From positions 6,820,001 to 6,884,000 of the forward strand of contig NZ_CP092431.1 of assembly GCF_022385335.1 (NCBI RefSeq): 64,000 nucleotides of DNA. The letters are read 5' to 3'. Shown here in pieces: positions 3,057 through 61,149 of this stretch (positions within the stretch are counted from its first letter, which is position 1; every line of letters starts with the position of its first letter). Under the pieces are notes generated by a model. It saw nothing but the letters and a program-made list of their open reading frames with translations. It did not search any database and was not told where the DNA came from. The translations under genes and the position numbers were made by a program. Origin of the DNA: Streptomyces deccanensis (GTDB lineage: Bacteria > Actinomycetota > Actinomycetes > Streptomycetales > Streptomycetaceae).

Positions 3057-5279
3057 GTGACAGCAGCAACGCATTCCACCCTCTTCCCGCGGGTCCCCGA
3101 CTCGGCCGACGCGGTGCTCGAAGGGCTCGACCCCGAGCAGCGCGCGGTCGCCACCGCCCTGCACGGCCCGGTGTGCGTGCTGGCCGGCGCCGGTACGGGC
3201 AAGACCCGGGCGATCACCCACCGCATCGCCTACGGAGTGCGGGCCGGAATGCTCCAGCCCGCCAGCGTGCTGGCCGTCACCTTCACCAATCGCGCCGCCG
3301 GAGAGATGCGGGGCCGCCTCCGCCAGCTCGGCGCCGCCGGAGTCCAGGCCCGGACCTTCCACTCGGCCGCACTGCGGCAACTGCAGTACTTCTGGCCGAA
3401 AGCCGTCGGCGGTGGCATGCCTCGCATCGTCGACCGCAAGATCCAGCTCGTCGCGGACGCCGCCGCGGCCTGCCGCATCCGTCTCGATCGCAACGAACTG
3501 CGCGACGCGGCCGCCGAGATCGAGTGGTCCAAGGTCACCCGCACCGTCCCCGCCGACTACGCTGCCGCGACGGCCAAGCACGGCCGCGAGGCCCCCCGTG
3601 ACCCCGCGGAGATCGCCAAGATCTACGCCACGTACGAGGACCTGAAGCGTGAGCGGGTCGTCATCGACTTCGAGGACGTCCTCCTGCTCACGGTCGGTAT
3701 CCTCCAGGACCGCCACGACATCGCCGAACAGGTCCGCTCCCAGTACCAGCACTTCGTGGTCGACGAGTACCAGGACGTCAGCCCCCTCCAGCAGCGCCTG
3801 CTGGAACTGTGGCTCGGCGACCGTGACGACCTGTGCGTCGTGGGCGACGCCAGCCAGACGATCTATTCGTTCACCGGCGCAACTCCCGACCATCTGCTCG
3901 ACTTCCGCCACCGCCACCCCGGGGCCACCGTCGTCAAGCTCGTCCGCGACTACCGCTCCACCCCGCAGGTGGTCCACCTCGCCAACGGCCTGCTCTCCCA
4001 GGCCCGCGGCCGCGCCGCCGATCACCGCCTGGAACTGATCTCCCAGCGCCCCCCGGGCCCCGAACCCCGGTACACCGAGTACGCGGACGAGCCCGCCGAG
4101 GCCGAGGGGGCCGCCCGCCGCATCCGCGACCTCATCGCCTCCGGAGTTCCCGCGAGCGAGATCGCCATCCTGTTCCGCACCAACTCCCAGTCCGAGACCT
4201 ACGAGCAGGCCCTCGCGGACGCCGGAGTGCCGTACCAGCTGCGCGGCGCGGAACGGTTCTTCGACCGGCCCGAGGTGCGCAAGGCGGGGGCCGCGCTGAG
4301 GGCGGCCGCGCGGTTCGGGGGCAACGACACCCTCCTCGAGGAGGCCGTCGACCTGCCCTCACAGGTACGGGCCGTGCTGTCCGGCGAGGGCTGGACCGGC
4401 GAGCCACCGGCCGGCTCCGGAGCGGTCAGGGAACGCTGGGAGTCGCTGGCGGCCCTGGTGAACCTGGCCCACGACTTCGCCGCCGCCAAGCCCGACGCCA
4501 CGCTCGGCGACCTGGTCGCGGAACTCGACGAACGGGCAGGCGCCCAGCACGCCCCGACCGTGCAGGGCGTCACCCTCGCCTCGCTGCACTCCGCGAAGGG
4601 CCTGGAGTGGGACGTCGTCTTCCTCGTCGGGGTCGCCGAGGGCATGATGCCGATCACCTACGCGAGAACGGACGAACAGATCGAGGAGGAGCGACGCCTC
4701 CTCTACGTGGGCGTGACCCGCGCGCGCGAACAGCTCTCCGTCTCCTGGTCCCTGTCCCGCTCACCCGGCAGCCGCCCCAACCGCCGCCCCAGCAGATTCC
4801 TCAACGGCCTGCGTCCAGGATCCACCGCCACCGTGGGCCGCACCGGCACAGGTGGCTCGGGAGGCGTCGAACCGGGCTCCCCGGGCCGTCGGACGGGCGA
4901 CCTCGCGGGCAGCGGCACAGAGGGGGCACCACGCCGCACCAGCCGCACCCCGGCGCGCTGTCGTGTCTGCGGGCGCACCCTGCGGGACGCCGGCGAGATG
5001 AAGCTGATGCGCTGCGAGGACTGCCCCTCCGACATGGACGAGGGCCTCTACGAGCGTTTGCGGGAGTGGCGCGCGGTCCAGGCGCAGCGCAGTGGCCAAC
5101 CCGACTTCTGTGTCTTCACGGACCGGACCCTGATGGCGATCGCGGAAGCGGGGCCGAGCACTCCGGTTGAACTGGGTCGCATCCCGGGCGTCCGAGCCCG
5201 CAAGCTGCAGCGGTACGGCGCCGATGTTCTCGACATCTGCGCAGGTCGGGAGCCTGAGCTCAAGGACGGGAACGACTGA
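3057..5279 (+). CDS. uvrD2: ATP-dependent DNA helicase UvrD2
   Basis: This 740-residue superfamily 1 helicase unwinds DNA in repair. Walker A is AGAGTGKT near residue 43 and the Walker B/DEYQD box (VDEYQDV) lies near 235. Motif III/IV sequences such as GDASQTIYSF and the late LLYVGVTRAREQL are intact. A linker carries a four-cysteine zinc-binding site (CRVCGRTLRD...RCEDCPSD), followed by a C-terminal HRDC domain (from about 680). That architecture is typical of actinobacterial UvrD2 and differs from UvrD1/PcrA. The GTG at 3057 is preceded by CAGCAT at 3045-3050, a possible -10 for a leaderless transcript; no Shine-Dalgarno is visible. wblC and its long leader lie immediately downstream, as whiB7 does in mycobacteria. 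Confidence 0.93.
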   Translation: MTAATHSTLFPRVPDSADAVLEGLDPEQRAVATALHGPVCVLAGAGTGKTRAITHRIAYGVRAGMLQPASVLAVTFTNRAAGEMRGRLRQLGAAGVQARTFHSAALRQLQYFWPKAVGGGMPRIVDRKIQLVADAAAACRIRLDRNELRDAAAEIEWSKVTRTVPADYAAATAKHGREAPRDPAEIAKIYATYEDLKRERVVIDFEDVLLLTVGILQDRHDIAEQVRSQYQHFVVDEYQDVSPLQQRLLELWLGDRDDLCVVGDASQTIYSFTGATPDHLLDFRHRHPGATVVKLVRDYRSTPQVVHLANGLLSQARGRAADHRLELISQRPPGPEPRYTEYADEPAEAEGAARRIRDLIASGVPASEIAILFRTNSQSETYEQALADAGVPYQLRGAERFFDRPEVRKAGAALRAAARFGGNDTLLEEAVDLPSQVRAVLSGEGWTGEPPAGSGAVRERWESLAALVNLAHDFAAAKPDATLGDLVAELDERAGAQHAPTVQGVTLASLHSAKGLEWDVVFLVGVAEGMMPITYARTDEQIEEERRLLYVGVTRAREQLSVSWSLSRSPGSRPNRRPSRFLNGLRPGSTATVGRTGTGGSGGVEPGSPGRRTGDLAGSGTEGAPRRTSRTPARCRVCGRTLRDAGEMKLMRCEDCPSDMDEGLYERLREWRAVQAQRSGQPDFCVFTDRTLMAIAEAGPSTPVELGRIPGVRARKLQRYGADVLDICAGREPELKDGND

Positions 5280-5292
5280 TGCGAACTCGTCG

Positions 5293-5332
5293 AAAAAATA
5301 GTTTGCGCATGCCCCAGCAATCCCCATAGGTT
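5293..5332 (+). promoter_or_regulatory. wblC promoter with AT-rich WhiB7-type upstream tract
   Basis: A run of A/T (AAAAAATA, 5293-5300) directly precedes a -35 hexamer TTGCGC (5303-5308). After an 18-bp spacer comes the -10 TAGGTT (5327-5332). WhiB7/WblC-dependent promoters are known for an AT tract just upstream of -35, contacted by the AT-hook of WhiB7, so the layout predicts positive autoregulation. In such GC-rich DNA the A-tract stands out. Confidence 0.7.
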
Positions 5333-5443
5333 CTTAGGCACGAGAGCAGCGGCCTTCTCGAAGGCCCTGGTTTCGTGATGTACTTCATATCCGTCGGATT
5401 GGTTCGCGCCGGTCCCCCAAGACGCCGAGAGGAGGCGAGTCCA

Positions 5444-5767
5444 GTGATCAGCATCAACACCAGCTACATCAGCACGGTCAAAATGACCGATCGCTCGGCC
5501 GTCTCCCTGTGCATGCTCGGCGTCTCGAACCTGGGCACCGGTCTGTCCGCCATCAGTGGCGGCCGTCCGGCGTCCTCCGTGTCTCTGACGGGTCTCCCCG
5601 TCCGTGAGCGCAATGAGCGACCGACCAAGGCACTGGAAGCAGCAGTAGAGGCACAGGCCCAGGCCTATGTCTTCGCGGCGGCCGGTGCCGGATTCCGGAA
5701 GCAGACGACGCAGCACCACTGGATGTGGGCCTTCCGTGGGCCTGAACCCTGGAGTGATCCAGCCTGA
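5444..5767 (+). CDS. upstream ORF in the wblC leader
   Basis: A 107-codon ORF starts at GTG 5444 behind a strong GAGGAGG (5428-5434 region) and ends at TGA 5765-5767, between the wblC promoter and wblC. The peptide resembles no enzyme. Its end is aromatic (HHWMWAFRGPEPW) and its stop codon lies inside a small hairpin (5763-5779), just before a terminator-like hairpin (5791-5825). Upstream ORFs that sense ribosome stalling are known for whiB7 and wblC leaders, so I read it as the translated sensor of an attenuator rather than a protein with its own job. The length (107 codons, with many internal ATGs in the region) leaves the exact start open. Confidence 0.65.
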   Translation: MISINTSYISTVKMTDRSAVSLCMLGVSNLGTGLSAISGGRPASSVSLTGLPVRERNERPTKALEAAVEAQAQAYVFAAAGAGFRKQTTQHHWMWAFRGPEPWSDPA

Positions 5768-5790
5768 TCGACGATCAGGCCGGCGCCTTC

Positions 5791-5832
5791 AGGGCCGCGG
5801 AACCCCATCCGGGATCCGCGGCCCTTCTGTTT
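5791..5832 (+). terminator. attenuator terminator in the wblC leader
   Basis: An 11-bp stem (AGGGCCGCGGA, 5791-5801, with its complement at 5815-5825) is followed by TCTGTTT. It lies between the upstream ORF and wblC, so read-through is needed for wblC expression. The upstream ORF's last codons contain GGCCTGAA (5739-5746), which can pair with TTCAGGGCC (5788-5796) in the 5' arm and could act as an antiterminator. Confidence 0.7.
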
Positions 5833-5940
5833 GTCCCCGACCGGGGACTACAGAGCGAAGGGGCCTCGGGACAAGAAAAGAACCCGGTACCAGCCGCCAC
5901 CGGCCAACAGGCCGGAACGACCAGACGAGGAAGACGAACC

Positions 5941-6309
5941 GTGCAACTCGAAGCGCACGCCCCGTCCGTACCGCCTTCCGAAACGATCCCCCCGCCCGGC
6001 CTCACGGAGGACTCCACCTTGACCCCGCTCACCGCGCTCACCGCGCTCGACGACGCCATCGAGAACCTCGGCGTACCCGTCCCCTGCCGCTCCTACGACC
6101 CGGAGGTCTTCTTCGCCGAGTCGCCGGCCGATGTCGAGTACGCCAAGTCCCTCTGCCGCACCTGCCCGCTGATGGAGGCCTGCCTCGCCGGCGCCAAGGA
6201 GCGGCGTGAGCCCTGGGGCGTCTGGGGTGGCGAGCTCTTCGTCCAGGGTGTTGTCGTGGCCCGCAAGCGGCCTCGTGGTCGCCCGCGCAAGAACCCGGTC
6301 ACGGCATGA
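5941..6309 (+). CDS. wblC: WhiB-family regulator WblC (WhiB7)
   Basis: This 122-residue iron-sulfur transcription factor activates intrinsic antibiotic-resistance genes together with the principal sigma factor. The four cluster-binding cysteines are C49 (VPCRS) and the C71/C74/C80 set (LCRTCPLMEAC). They are followed by EPWGVWGGE, a signature of the WhiB7 subgroup, and a C-terminal AT-hook RPRGRPRK that binds AT-rich DNA upstream of -35 elements. The GTG at 5941 has GAGGAAG about 7 nt upstream. Expression is probably controlled by the long leader with its upstream ORF and terminator. It overlaps the next small gene by ATGA, so the two are co-translated. Confidence 0.95.
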   Translation: MQLEAHAPSVPPSETIPPPGLTEDSTLTPLTALTALDDAIENLGVPVPCRSYDPEVFFAESPADVEYAKSLCRTCPLMEACLAGAKERREPWGVWGGELFVQGVVVARKRPRGRPRKNPVTA

Positions 6310-6629
6310 ACATCACCGGAACGATCGACCGCCCTCTCACGCACGACCCCAAGAAGCAGGCCCCGATGAAGCCGTCCACGAGCGAGCCCGCAGGCTCCGC
6401 GACACCTGATTTCACCACCACCGGCGCGAACGCCTCGCGTCAGAACAGGACCCGAGAAATGCATCTCATGCCAGAAGCCCTGGCTCGTGCGCATATGCAC
6501 GAGCGCCTGCACCAGGCTGAGCAGGAACGCCGGGCCATGCGCCTGGCGGTCGCTCAGCGGATGCAGCGCAGGGCCGAGCGCGCCTCGCTGCGCGCCCGCC
6601 GTGCGCTCGCCATGGCGGTCATGCAGTAG
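6306..6629 (+). CDS. small basic helical protein translationally coupled to wblC
   Basis: This is a 107-residue protein of unknown function whose ATG overlaps the wblC stop (ATGA, 6306-6309). The first 45 residues look disordered. The rest, from about MHLMPEALARAHMHERLH onward, is a long amphipathic, very Arg/Ala/Met/Gln-rich helix. It could bind nucleic acid or form a coiled coil, but nothing identifies it. The coupling means it should be induced with WblC by ribosome-targeting antibiotics. A 16-bp perfect hairpin after it ends the unit. No other family is recognised. Confidence 0.7.
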   Translation: MNITGTIDRPLTHDPKKQAPMKPSTSEPAGSATPDFTTTGANASRQNRTREMHLMPEALARAHMHERLHQAEQERRAMRLAVAQRMQRRAERASLRARRALAMAVMQ

Positions 6630-6692
6630 CCGCCACGCGGCGACCGGCATGATCCGGCCTTGACAGGCTGTCACCATCACCAGCAGTGGCTC

Positions 6693-6728
6693 CCGCGGGG
6701 GCCGGTCCGAAGGGACCGGCCCCCGCGG
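6693..6728 (+). terminator. intrinsic terminator after the wblC unit
   Basis: A perfect 16-bp stem with a GAAG tetraloop (6709-6712): left arm 6693-6708, right arm 6713-6728. No T-run follows, as is usual for Streptomyces terminators. Confidence 0.75.
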
Positions 6729-6774
6729 TGCGTTGTGCCCACGGATCCGCCGAGGGCGGCGATATCGTCGCCGG

Positions 6775-6984
6775 GTGACGAGTCTTTCCGGGGACAATGA
6801 CCAGGGCGGCCCCGCCGCGGAACCCCAGACCCTCGTGTGCGCCCGCTGCGGCATCACCGCCGAGGCCCCTCGACCTCTGTGGATCTGTTCCGTGGAGAAC
6901 GGCGCTCGGCACTACTTCTGCGAGACCTGCGCCAGGCAGAATCTGCGCGCGATCGAGGGCAGGTTGGACTCGGCCTGGTGGTGA
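6775..6984 (+). CDS. small zinc-ribbon protein
   Basis: This 69-residue protein begins at GTG 6775, with two CxxC pairs, CARCG near residue 22 and CETCA near 51, which should bind one zinc ion. The sequence between them (PRPLWICSVENGARHYFC) resembles small treble-clef or zinc-ribbon proteins that are common and uncharacterised in actinobacteria. It stands alone between the wblC terminator and the converging ABC1 kinase gene, only 47 bp from that gene's stop. No function can be assigned. Confidence 0.65.
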   Translation: MTSLSGDNDQGGPAAEPQTLVCARCGITAEAPRPLWICSVENGARHYFCETCARQNLRAIEGRLDSAWW

Positions 6985-60891: not shown

Positions 60892-61149
60892 TCAGGCGGA
60901 TGCCTGACGGGCCCGGTTGCGGGCGGCGCGGCGCTTCATGGCGCGGCGCTCGTCCTCGCTGAGACCACCCCAGACGCCGGAGTCCTGGCCGGACTCAAGC
61001 GCCCACTGCAGACACTGCTCGATAACCGGGCAGCGACGGCAGACAGCCTTGGCTTCCTCGATCTGCAGCAGCGCAGGACCGGTGTTGCCGATGGGGAAGA
61101 AGAGCTCGGGGTCTTCCTCGCGGCAAACGGCGTTGTGACGCCAGTCCAT
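60892..61149 (-). CDS. wblE: WhiB-family protein WblE
   Basis: This 85-residue iron-sulfur protein has the four cluster cysteines at residue 9 (AVCREEDPELFFP) and in VCRRCPVIEQC, followed by GVWGGLSEDERR and a very basic tail (MKRRAARNRARQ). This short form is the common WblE (WhiB1-type) actinobacterial regulator, likely to bind the principal sigma factor. AGGAGAGG precedes ATG 61149. It is the second WhiB-family gene in the window; unlike WblC it lacks an AT-hook. Confidence 0.93.
   Translation of the reverse strand: MDWRHNAVCREEDPELFFPIGNTGPALLQIEEAKAVCRRCPVIEQCLQWALESGQDSGVWGGLSEDERRAMKRRAARNRARQASA

Follow-up and report, generated by a model that had tools for sequence, protein, structure and literature searches.

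A probable translation-coupled transcription attenuator in the wblC leader of Streptomyces deccanensis, with a revised antiterminator pairing

The window analyzed here, a stretch of 64,000 nucleotides of the Streptomyces deccanensis genome (NZ_CP092431.1, positions 6,820,001 to 6,884,000 of the forward strand), carries the gene wblC and its long leader; all positions given are those of the window. We conclude, with a probability of about 0.86, that this leader is a translation-coupled transcription attenuator that senses the progress of the ribosome over the whole of an upstream open reading frame (uORF). The reading as an attenuator, already that of the initial annotation, is backed by conservation, by nascent-RNA folding and by a class-wide swap of pairing partners; the analysis drew on anatomy, conservation, predicted nascent folds and the complementarity of each leader's own partners across genera. 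The mechanism has already been published for relatives; the exact pairing is corrected here and found to be supported in other genera, and a gate at the Shine-Dalgarno (SD) sequence of the uORF is offered as a new suggestion.

The gap in front of wblC, initially given as 660 bp, exists and measures exactly 661 bp, from the end of an upstream UvrD/HRDC-type helicase gene at 5279 (stop codon 5277-5279) to the wblC start at 5941. All of the parts annotated in it (promoter, uORF with strong SD, stop-codon hairpin, 11-bp terminator stem and then wblC) were confirmed in that order. The promoter (5294-5332, plus strand) was assigned from sequence motifs and comprises an AT tract with the presumed WblC box AAAAAT (5294-5299), a -35 element TTGCGC (5303-5308) and, after a spacer of 18 bases, a -10 element TAGGTT (5327-5332). 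The AAAAAT motif sits three bases before the -35 element and is one letter off the WblC box GAAAWY, which is placed 3 nt upstream of -35 in a passage of PMC7157823. The promoter motif AAAATAGTTTGC was found in 127 and CATAGGTTC in 101 of 128 same-genus leaders. The wblC gene itself, a whiB7 orthologue of 122 aa (5941-6309, plus strand), has a GTG start and the SD sequence GAGGA (5927-5931). Its product belongs to the WhiB family (Pfam Whib, E 9.9e-15), with an AT-hook match under its cut-off. All 61 genomes searched, the window's own among them, had a match to wblC, and in 59 its E value was 5.7e-24 or lower; in the genome of the window, the second-best WhiB-like match had E 1.2e-9. A second WhiB-like match within the window lies at 60904-61131 on the minus strand (E 1.2e-9).

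Leaders were compared at 110 wblC loci, of which 30 came from a genome search (one being the window's own) and 80 from Streptomyces records. The addition of 20 more divergent loci of the same genus gave 130 leaders, 128 of them distinct after removal of L032 and L063 as exact duplicates; L111-L122 and L203-L209 stand outside the leader sets. Alignment A1 combined the window with 41 dereplicated members of the 130 (42 leaders in total). A further set of 60 class loci, drawn from within the same order and class, was chosen for spread and similarity, not at random; 53 were kept, and seven were dropped for want of a strong terminator or of an SD-preceded uORF. Kinship among the compared leaders was only partly controlled.

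The uORF (5444-5767, plus strand) starts with GTG, has 107 codons and ends with TGA at 5765-5767; its SD sequence is AGGAGG (5430-5435), and GGAGG is present in 128/128 leaders. The annotated uORF with a strong ribosome site was recovered in every same-genus leader examined, an intact SD-preceded frame being found at all 110 loci and at all 20 of the more divergent ones (130/130 leaders, 128 distinct). Among the distinct leaders the uORF spans 88-129 codons, starts with GTG in 116 and ATG in 12, and stops with TGA in all 128. Searches of its product against Pfam and NCBIfam gave nothing above a cut-off. Third-position GC was 0.76 in the uORF vs 0.90 in wblC, and rare codons made up 19% vs 8% (108 leaders); rarity was defined by 26 window ORFs picked for third-position GC above 0.85, such that comparison of the uORF with this reference is partly circular but comparison with wblC is not. 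When random pairs among 88 leaders with ungapped wblC were examined at fourfold sites, third bases were identical in 93% of cases at uORF codons 1-35, 94% at codons 94-107 and 67-88% in between; the corresponding values for wblC were 89% at codons 1-40 and 73% at codons 41-120. The high identity at both ends of the uORF indicates that both are constrained as RNA or codons, beyond the peptide. Fourfold-site identity is also high (0.89) at wblC codons 2-40 (5944-6060), which may represent an RNA-level constraint at the start of the gene.

Downstream of the uORF, an 11-bp terminator stem (5791-5801:5815-5825, plus strand) is followed by an A.A mismatch and an inner helix (5803-5805:5811-5813) and ends in a broken U-tract, TTCTGTTT (5825-5832). 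The stem, annotated from the window, was paired in 99.6% of cells in the 42 leaders of the same genus and in 97.0% of cells in the 53 leaders of other genera, where 5 of 10 pairs had changed on both sides. Its 5' arm begins 20-27 nt after the uORF stop codon in 128/128 distinct leaders, and its 3' arm is followed by TT in 130/130 (duplicates still included). The terminator pattern has one exact match in the genome and two other places with 2 mismatches; a simple terminator scan did not list the wblC-leader terminator, probably owing to a loop longer than 8 nt. The small hairpin noted over the uORF stop codon, in which GCCUGAUC (5762-5769) pairs with GAUCAGGC (5773-5780, plus strand) around the UGA at 5765-5767, was likewise kept in the 42 leaders, with 97.9% of cells paired and both-side changes at 4 of its 8 pairs. 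Across 79 dereplicated leaders it had 17 both-side cells (shuffle mean 3.5, reached in 0/200 shuffles); slid versions had up to 19 but were at most 41% paired. A second hairpin lies right after the terminator at 5826-5854 (UCUGU..GUCCCC-GACC-GGGGAC.ACAGA); its GUCCCC:GGGGAC arm appears to covary in leaders L058 and L065 and is absent from L103 and L109.

The antiterminator predicted here (5719-5812, plus strand) is formed by four helices, 5719-5725:5806-5812, 5727-5729:5803-5805, 5732-5739:5795-5802 and 5747-5754:5787-5794, and is capped by the stop-codon hairpin 5762-5769:5773-5780, which places the end of the uORF at the apex. For nascent RNA that begins at 5711 and ends at 5800-5820, the antiterminator was the minimum-energy fold (-45.2 to -58.5 kcal/mol), and the fold flipped to the terminator once the RNA reached 5826. 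From an end at 5800, CCGUGG (5734-5739) paired with 5795-5800 and CCCUGGAG (5747-5754) with CUUCAGGG (5787-5794); UU 5732-5733 with AA 5801-5802 was added from 5806, and GGG 5727-5729 with CCC 5803-5805 together with the outer helix 5719-5725:5806-5812 from ends at 5810-5812. In the 42 dereplicated leaders CCCUGGAG:CUUCAGGG was paired in 99.4% of cells, the adjoining helix UUCCGYGG:CCGCGGAA in 95.2% and the whole structure in 97.5%, vs at most 48.4% for slid versions. RNAalifold of 128 leaders, with the RNA carried only up to 5800, returned 5734-5739:5795-5800 and 5747-5754:5787-5794, helices whose pairs can form in 123-128 of these leaders. In leader L126 one position has changed in the uORF and in both arms of the terminator, and the terminator and antiterminator pairs are both kept. 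Thus, by sequence and folding, a Rho-independent terminator lies between the uORF and wblC, and the last part of the uORF can combine with the 5' arm of that terminator into an antiterminator. The hairpins and the uORF end, whose comparison among Streptomyces leaders the initial annotation had proposed, were conserved in the same-genus leaders compared. A candidate GNRA-type hairpin in the WSDPA codons (about 5749-5762, CUGGA-GNGA-UCCAG; 97.1% of cells paired, no both-side change) would compete with the antiterminator.

Several results limit how the same-genus pairing is to be read. When the terminator 3' arm was included, RNAalifold returned the terminator and not the antiterminator on alignments A1 and A2, and on A2 nothing else; in full-length folds with the uORF end left free, the terminator still came out ahead by 5.3 kcal/mol. 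Thus, the antiterminator would have to persist through kinetic trapping. When the uORF end was shuffled synonymously, it paired with the terminator arm as well or better (-33.2 and -31.4 kcal/mol, vs -29.6 for the leaders' own ends), so there is no sign of selection on pairing strength itself within the genus. The antiterminator columns of 79 same-genus leaders contained 1 both-side cell, a value reached in 2/200 shuffles, and their percentage paired equaled that of the shuffles; since these columns hardly vary in the genus, their support is conservation and not covariation.

Support of another kind came from the class set. A candidate SD-preceded ORF ends 14-40 nt before the strong terminator in 53 of the 60 class leaders, a distance that is partly built in because the scan reached only 45 nt from the terminator. 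The antiterminator region varies between families and tends to remain complementary within each. With the tip hairpin excluded, each of the 53 leaders paired with its own partner at a mean of -23.5 kcal/mol, vs -19.8 for permuted partners (sd 0.38; 0/5000 permutations as good), an average cost of 3.7 kcal/mol; with the tip hairpin included the cost was 7.3 (0/2000 as good). The own strand was better than the cross-family mean in 46/53 leaders in one direction and 43/53 in the other. By family, the advantage was present in 14/17 and 12/17 and absent in 3/17 and 5/17, respectively. Relative to dinucleotide shuffles of the uORF arm, the mean z in these other-genus leaders was -1.9, with values below -1 in 42/53. 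On the columns of the class alignment, 71.7% of cells were paired vs 65.2% after shuffling, and 65 cells had changed on both sides vs 37.4 in shuffles and at most 31 in slid versions; the number of pairs with any both-side change was not above the shuffles (234/500). Changes on the terminator side that keep complementarity were found in L144, L145, L147, L148, L151, L153-L155, L196 and L197.

A covariance model (R2) trained only on the 53 other-genus leaders found the window at E 3.8e-17 and recovered each of the 37 same-genus genomes with E values no higher than 6.6e-11. In the full set of 61 genomes, several of them sources of training rows, 59 had a match, the best in each lying just upstream of the wblC match. 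The two genomes missed by R2, G053 and G055, are also those without a close wblC (best E 1.2e-8 and 3.9e-8). Secondary R2 matches were at E 1e-4 or worse, and several overlap the main match on the opposite strand. The element is thus detectable in every same-genus genome searched, although Rfam has no family for it; in an Rfam search of 4500-6800 the best result was a miRNA-family match with 24.3 bits vs a cut-off of 65 (E 0.38).

Based on these structures, the attenuator would operate as follows. A ribosome would follow RNA polymerase closely as the long uORF is transcribed. A ribosome that reaches the stop codon in time would cover the apical hairpin and the 5' strand of the antiterminator; the downstream strand 5787-5802 would then be free to enter the terminator (5791-5825), and transcription would end near 5826-5832. 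If the ribosome never started, or was slowed or stalled roughly before codon 88, the uORF end (5719-5754) would be naked when 5787-5812 emerges. The stop-codon hairpin would form first and join the two strands, the antiterminator would zip up before the terminator 3' arm is made, and the polymerase would continue into wblC, whose product may then boost its own promoter. We infer the kinetic order, the codon-88 boundary, the ribosome state that is sensed and self-activation in this strain. Since a delay anywhere upstream would free the uORF end, the sensor would therefore be overall ribosome progress across the uORF and no special peptide or amino acid. The stop codon at the antiterminator tip, the long sensing zone and the lack of a peptide end shared across genera would fit a device that responds to any delay before about codon 88.

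Several other explanations of the leader were weighed against this reading. Peptides of the ErmCL or TnaC type stall their own ribosome, and the uORF end MWAFRG[PL]EPWSDPA might likewise arrest its ribosome near the stop codon under drugs. Within the genus the peptide end is well conserved: MWAFRG[PL]EPW[SR]DP[AV] is exact in 91/128 leaders, W-A-x-R-G (R for W in one leader) and W-x-x-P-x-stop occur in 128/128, and Pro precedes the last residue also in 41 of the 53 leaders from other genera. The conservation expected of an arrest peptide across orthologues stops at the genus, however. The aromatic end WMWAFRGPEPW of the initial annotation fails as a signal, with W among the last 8 residues in only 21/53 other-genus leaders, and its first W is a variable position even among relatives (L in 43%). 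Other genera carry replacement ends (e.g., RTWSPPV, FRTSGPPG and AWSPPV) with complementarity maintained by terminator-side changes. In addition, a ribosome stalled at this site would be expected to cover the antiterminator 5' strand and favor termination, and the 94% fourfold identity of the last 14 codons, vs 73% in wblC codons 41-120, is unexplained by a peptide alone. We consider an arrest peptide very unlikely. An attenuator specific for charged tRNA-Trp has in its favor the three Trp codons (93, 95 and 103) among the last 15 of the window uORF, as well as trpL-type leaders in Streptomyces lividans, as described in part of PMC8079986. Codon 93 is the variable one, the other two, which are conserved, belong to the antiterminator 5' strand, which a waiting ribosome would presumably hide, and the scarcity of W in the other genera applies here too; no run of control codons placed to free the antiterminator was found, and this explanation is hardly tenable. 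The conserved uORF end is thus read mainly as an RNA element, since it is replaced in other genera with complementarity kept and a Trp-held ribosome would cover the antiterminator strand; the same-genus set alone is no proof of RNA selection there, because synonymous shuffles do not weaken the pairing.

A closer variant retains the attenuator and takes GGCCTGAA:TTCAGG, the pairing proposed in the initial annotation, as the operative antiterminator of this strain. The wider idea, that the terminator 5' arm and the end of the uORF join as an antiterminator, is supported, and this particular pairing is possible in the window; a bare duplex prediction, in which the terminator arm was set against the final codons of the uORF, returned it along with UUCCGUGG:CCGCGGAA. 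In the predicted fold of the continuous nascent strand CCCUGGAG:CUUCAGGG is preferred, and the six pairs (CCTGAA) of the earlier proposal were not conserved: the middle pair is kept in 13/42 leaders and the next but one in 27/42. Variation at codon 100, which reads CTC in 49 and CCA in 46 of the 128 leaders, breaks the pairing in most relatives, and we judge it unlikely to be the one at work. Translational control is established for leaders of the ermC type, and some drug-resistance leaders act in this manner, which raises masking of the wblC start site, with the hairpins as mere spacers, as another explanation. The U-tract after the hairpin and the 115 nt that separate the hairpin end from the wblC start speak against this, as does the predicted accessibility of the wblC SD, which is fairly open (0.52-0.60 at five of six lengths and 0.27 at one); masking appears extremely improbable.

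The translation-coupled attenuator preferred here has parallels in known systems. In the E. coli trp-type attenuator, the position of the ribosome decides between competing antiterminator and terminator, as proposed for the wblC leader, and re-initiation at trpL is also limited by RNA pairing, which resembles the SD gate suggested below. The E. coli leader peptide is short with a run of control codons, whereas the uORF here is 107 codons long and lacks one; the position of its stop codon at the predicted antiterminator tip also sets this leader apart from the E. coli trp type. The 2018 work of Burian and Thompson reportedly concerned the whiB7 5' leader of mycobacteria, and the 2022 work of Lee, Lee and Roe is said to have been done in Streptomyces coelicolor. 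The latter (Mol Microbiol 117:179), as related in portions of PMC11550727, PMC9618640 and PMC10727445, described uORF-mediated attenuation of wblC; these sources give the leader a uORF, a Rho-independent terminator, an antiterminator that overlaps both, and read-through with drugs. To the extent covered there, the S. coelicolor wblC leader has the same arrangement as that found here, and the gene here is the wblC orthologue. PMC13393426 is a further source that cites this work, and between them the citing papers credit it with attenuation of wblC and induction by drugs and amino-acid starvation; the starvation response is given in an extract of PMC12121999. The mycobacterial whiB7 5' leader, according to sections of PMC4128351, similarly has an SD-preceded uORF followed by a T-tailed stem-loop, with attenuation at the uORF 3' end; the experiments differ in having been performed in other species. 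Two ARE-ABCF leaders examined in Streptomyces coelicolor, are5sc and tiaA, share with the wblC leader a uORF, a predicted terminator/antiterminator and a response to ribosome-targeting drugs, based on the portion of PMC12421871 consulted. They differ, by the same portion of that paper, in uORFs of 3-9 residues with stalling at the start codon and in a narrower range of drugs, erythromycin giving no toeprinting response; the tiaA leader failed to act as a transcriptional attenuator in the reporter described there. Stalling of ribosomes by antibiotics inside the whiB7 uORF is called untested in a passage of a 2025 paper (PMC12121999); a sensor that answers to any sufficiently early delay of the ribosome would account for the sensing of many classes of drug by one uORF.

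Folding of the 5' part of the leader suggests that the SD of the uORF may be shut by uORF codons about 20-26 (5501-5521) once about 75 nt of the uORF are made, a possibly new feature. In the RNAalifold structure (plus strand), GCCGAG 5424-5429 pairs with CUCGGC 5516-5521 and the SD (5431-5436) with 5501-5506. Minimum-energy folds that include 120 nt of the uORF paired the SD downstream of the start codon in 128/128 leaders, with a partner that varies in position, mostly 41-71 nt into the uORF and in some leaders 92-99. Mean SD accessibility in 79 dereplicated leaders fell from 0.48 with 35 nt of uORF to 0.12 with 75 nt and 0.09 with 105 nt, and the window's own value went from 0.52 to less than 0.01; ten control genes taken from the window stayed at about 0.4 throughout, with 2/10 below 0.1 at 105 nt. 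Synonymous shuffles left the SD more open (0.21 and 0.19), the leaders' own values being lower in 65 and 61 of 79. The SD-helix duplex, scored on alignment columns in 77/79 leaders (an in-frame CTCGGC version skipped 23/79), was 5.5 kcal/mol stronger than in synonymous shuffles (-27.0 vs -21.5), with z below -1 in 69/77. Covariation of this helix is thin, with 2 both-side cells, a value reached in 1/200 shuffles and exceeded by slid versions (3). In 53 leaders of other genera SD accessibility hardly dropped (0.39 to 0.31), and the gate, if real, is therefore confined to the genus. We tentatively propose, as a possibility that we hold below even odds, that the SD of the same-genus wblC uORF is open for the first 45-60 nt and then shut, such that a single pioneer ribosome, coupled to the polymerase, is the sensor and the decision is made once per transcript. 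A self-closing SD, if true, would explain how one coupled ribosome comes to be the sensor, and the leader would measure the speed of that ribosome relative to the polymerase and not average translation. By title and opening of the abstract, no literature on an SD-closing helix in whiB7 leaders was found, a search too shallow for a firm claim of absence.

Further hairpins were predicted in the leader by RNAalifold. In the 5' UTR, hairpin P1 (5339-5357:5361-5377, plus strand; 128 leaders) was paired in 89.0% of cells in the 79 dereplicated leaders, with 64 both-side cells (shuffle mean 19.9, 0/200); slid versions had up to 50 but were at most 52.5% paired. Hairpin P2 (5396-5402:5409-5415, plus strand) had 25 both-side cells (shuffle mean 8.2, 0/200; slid, at most 16). 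Two candidates were dropped: a hairpin at 5485-5500, which had no both-side change, and pairing of GGCACCGG (5534-5541) with CCGGTGCC (5682-5689), for which RNAalifold prefers 5629-5636 as the partner. The resulting mid-uORF hairpin (5629-5636:5682-5689 and 5642-5658:5663-5679, plus strand) is weak, its two helices having 16 and 20 both-side cells in the 75/79 leaders on which the shuffle test ran (shuffle means 3.7 and 11.1), with slid versions at up to 24 and 34. The rare codons GCA, GTA and CGA cluster in the same region (5629-5689), and hairpin and codons together could pause the ribosome or the polymerase. Just upstream, the codon pair CGA-CCG (5618-5623) is nearly frozen, with CGA in 107/108 and CCG in 108/108 leaders, and CGA is a rare codon (0.046 of Arg codons).
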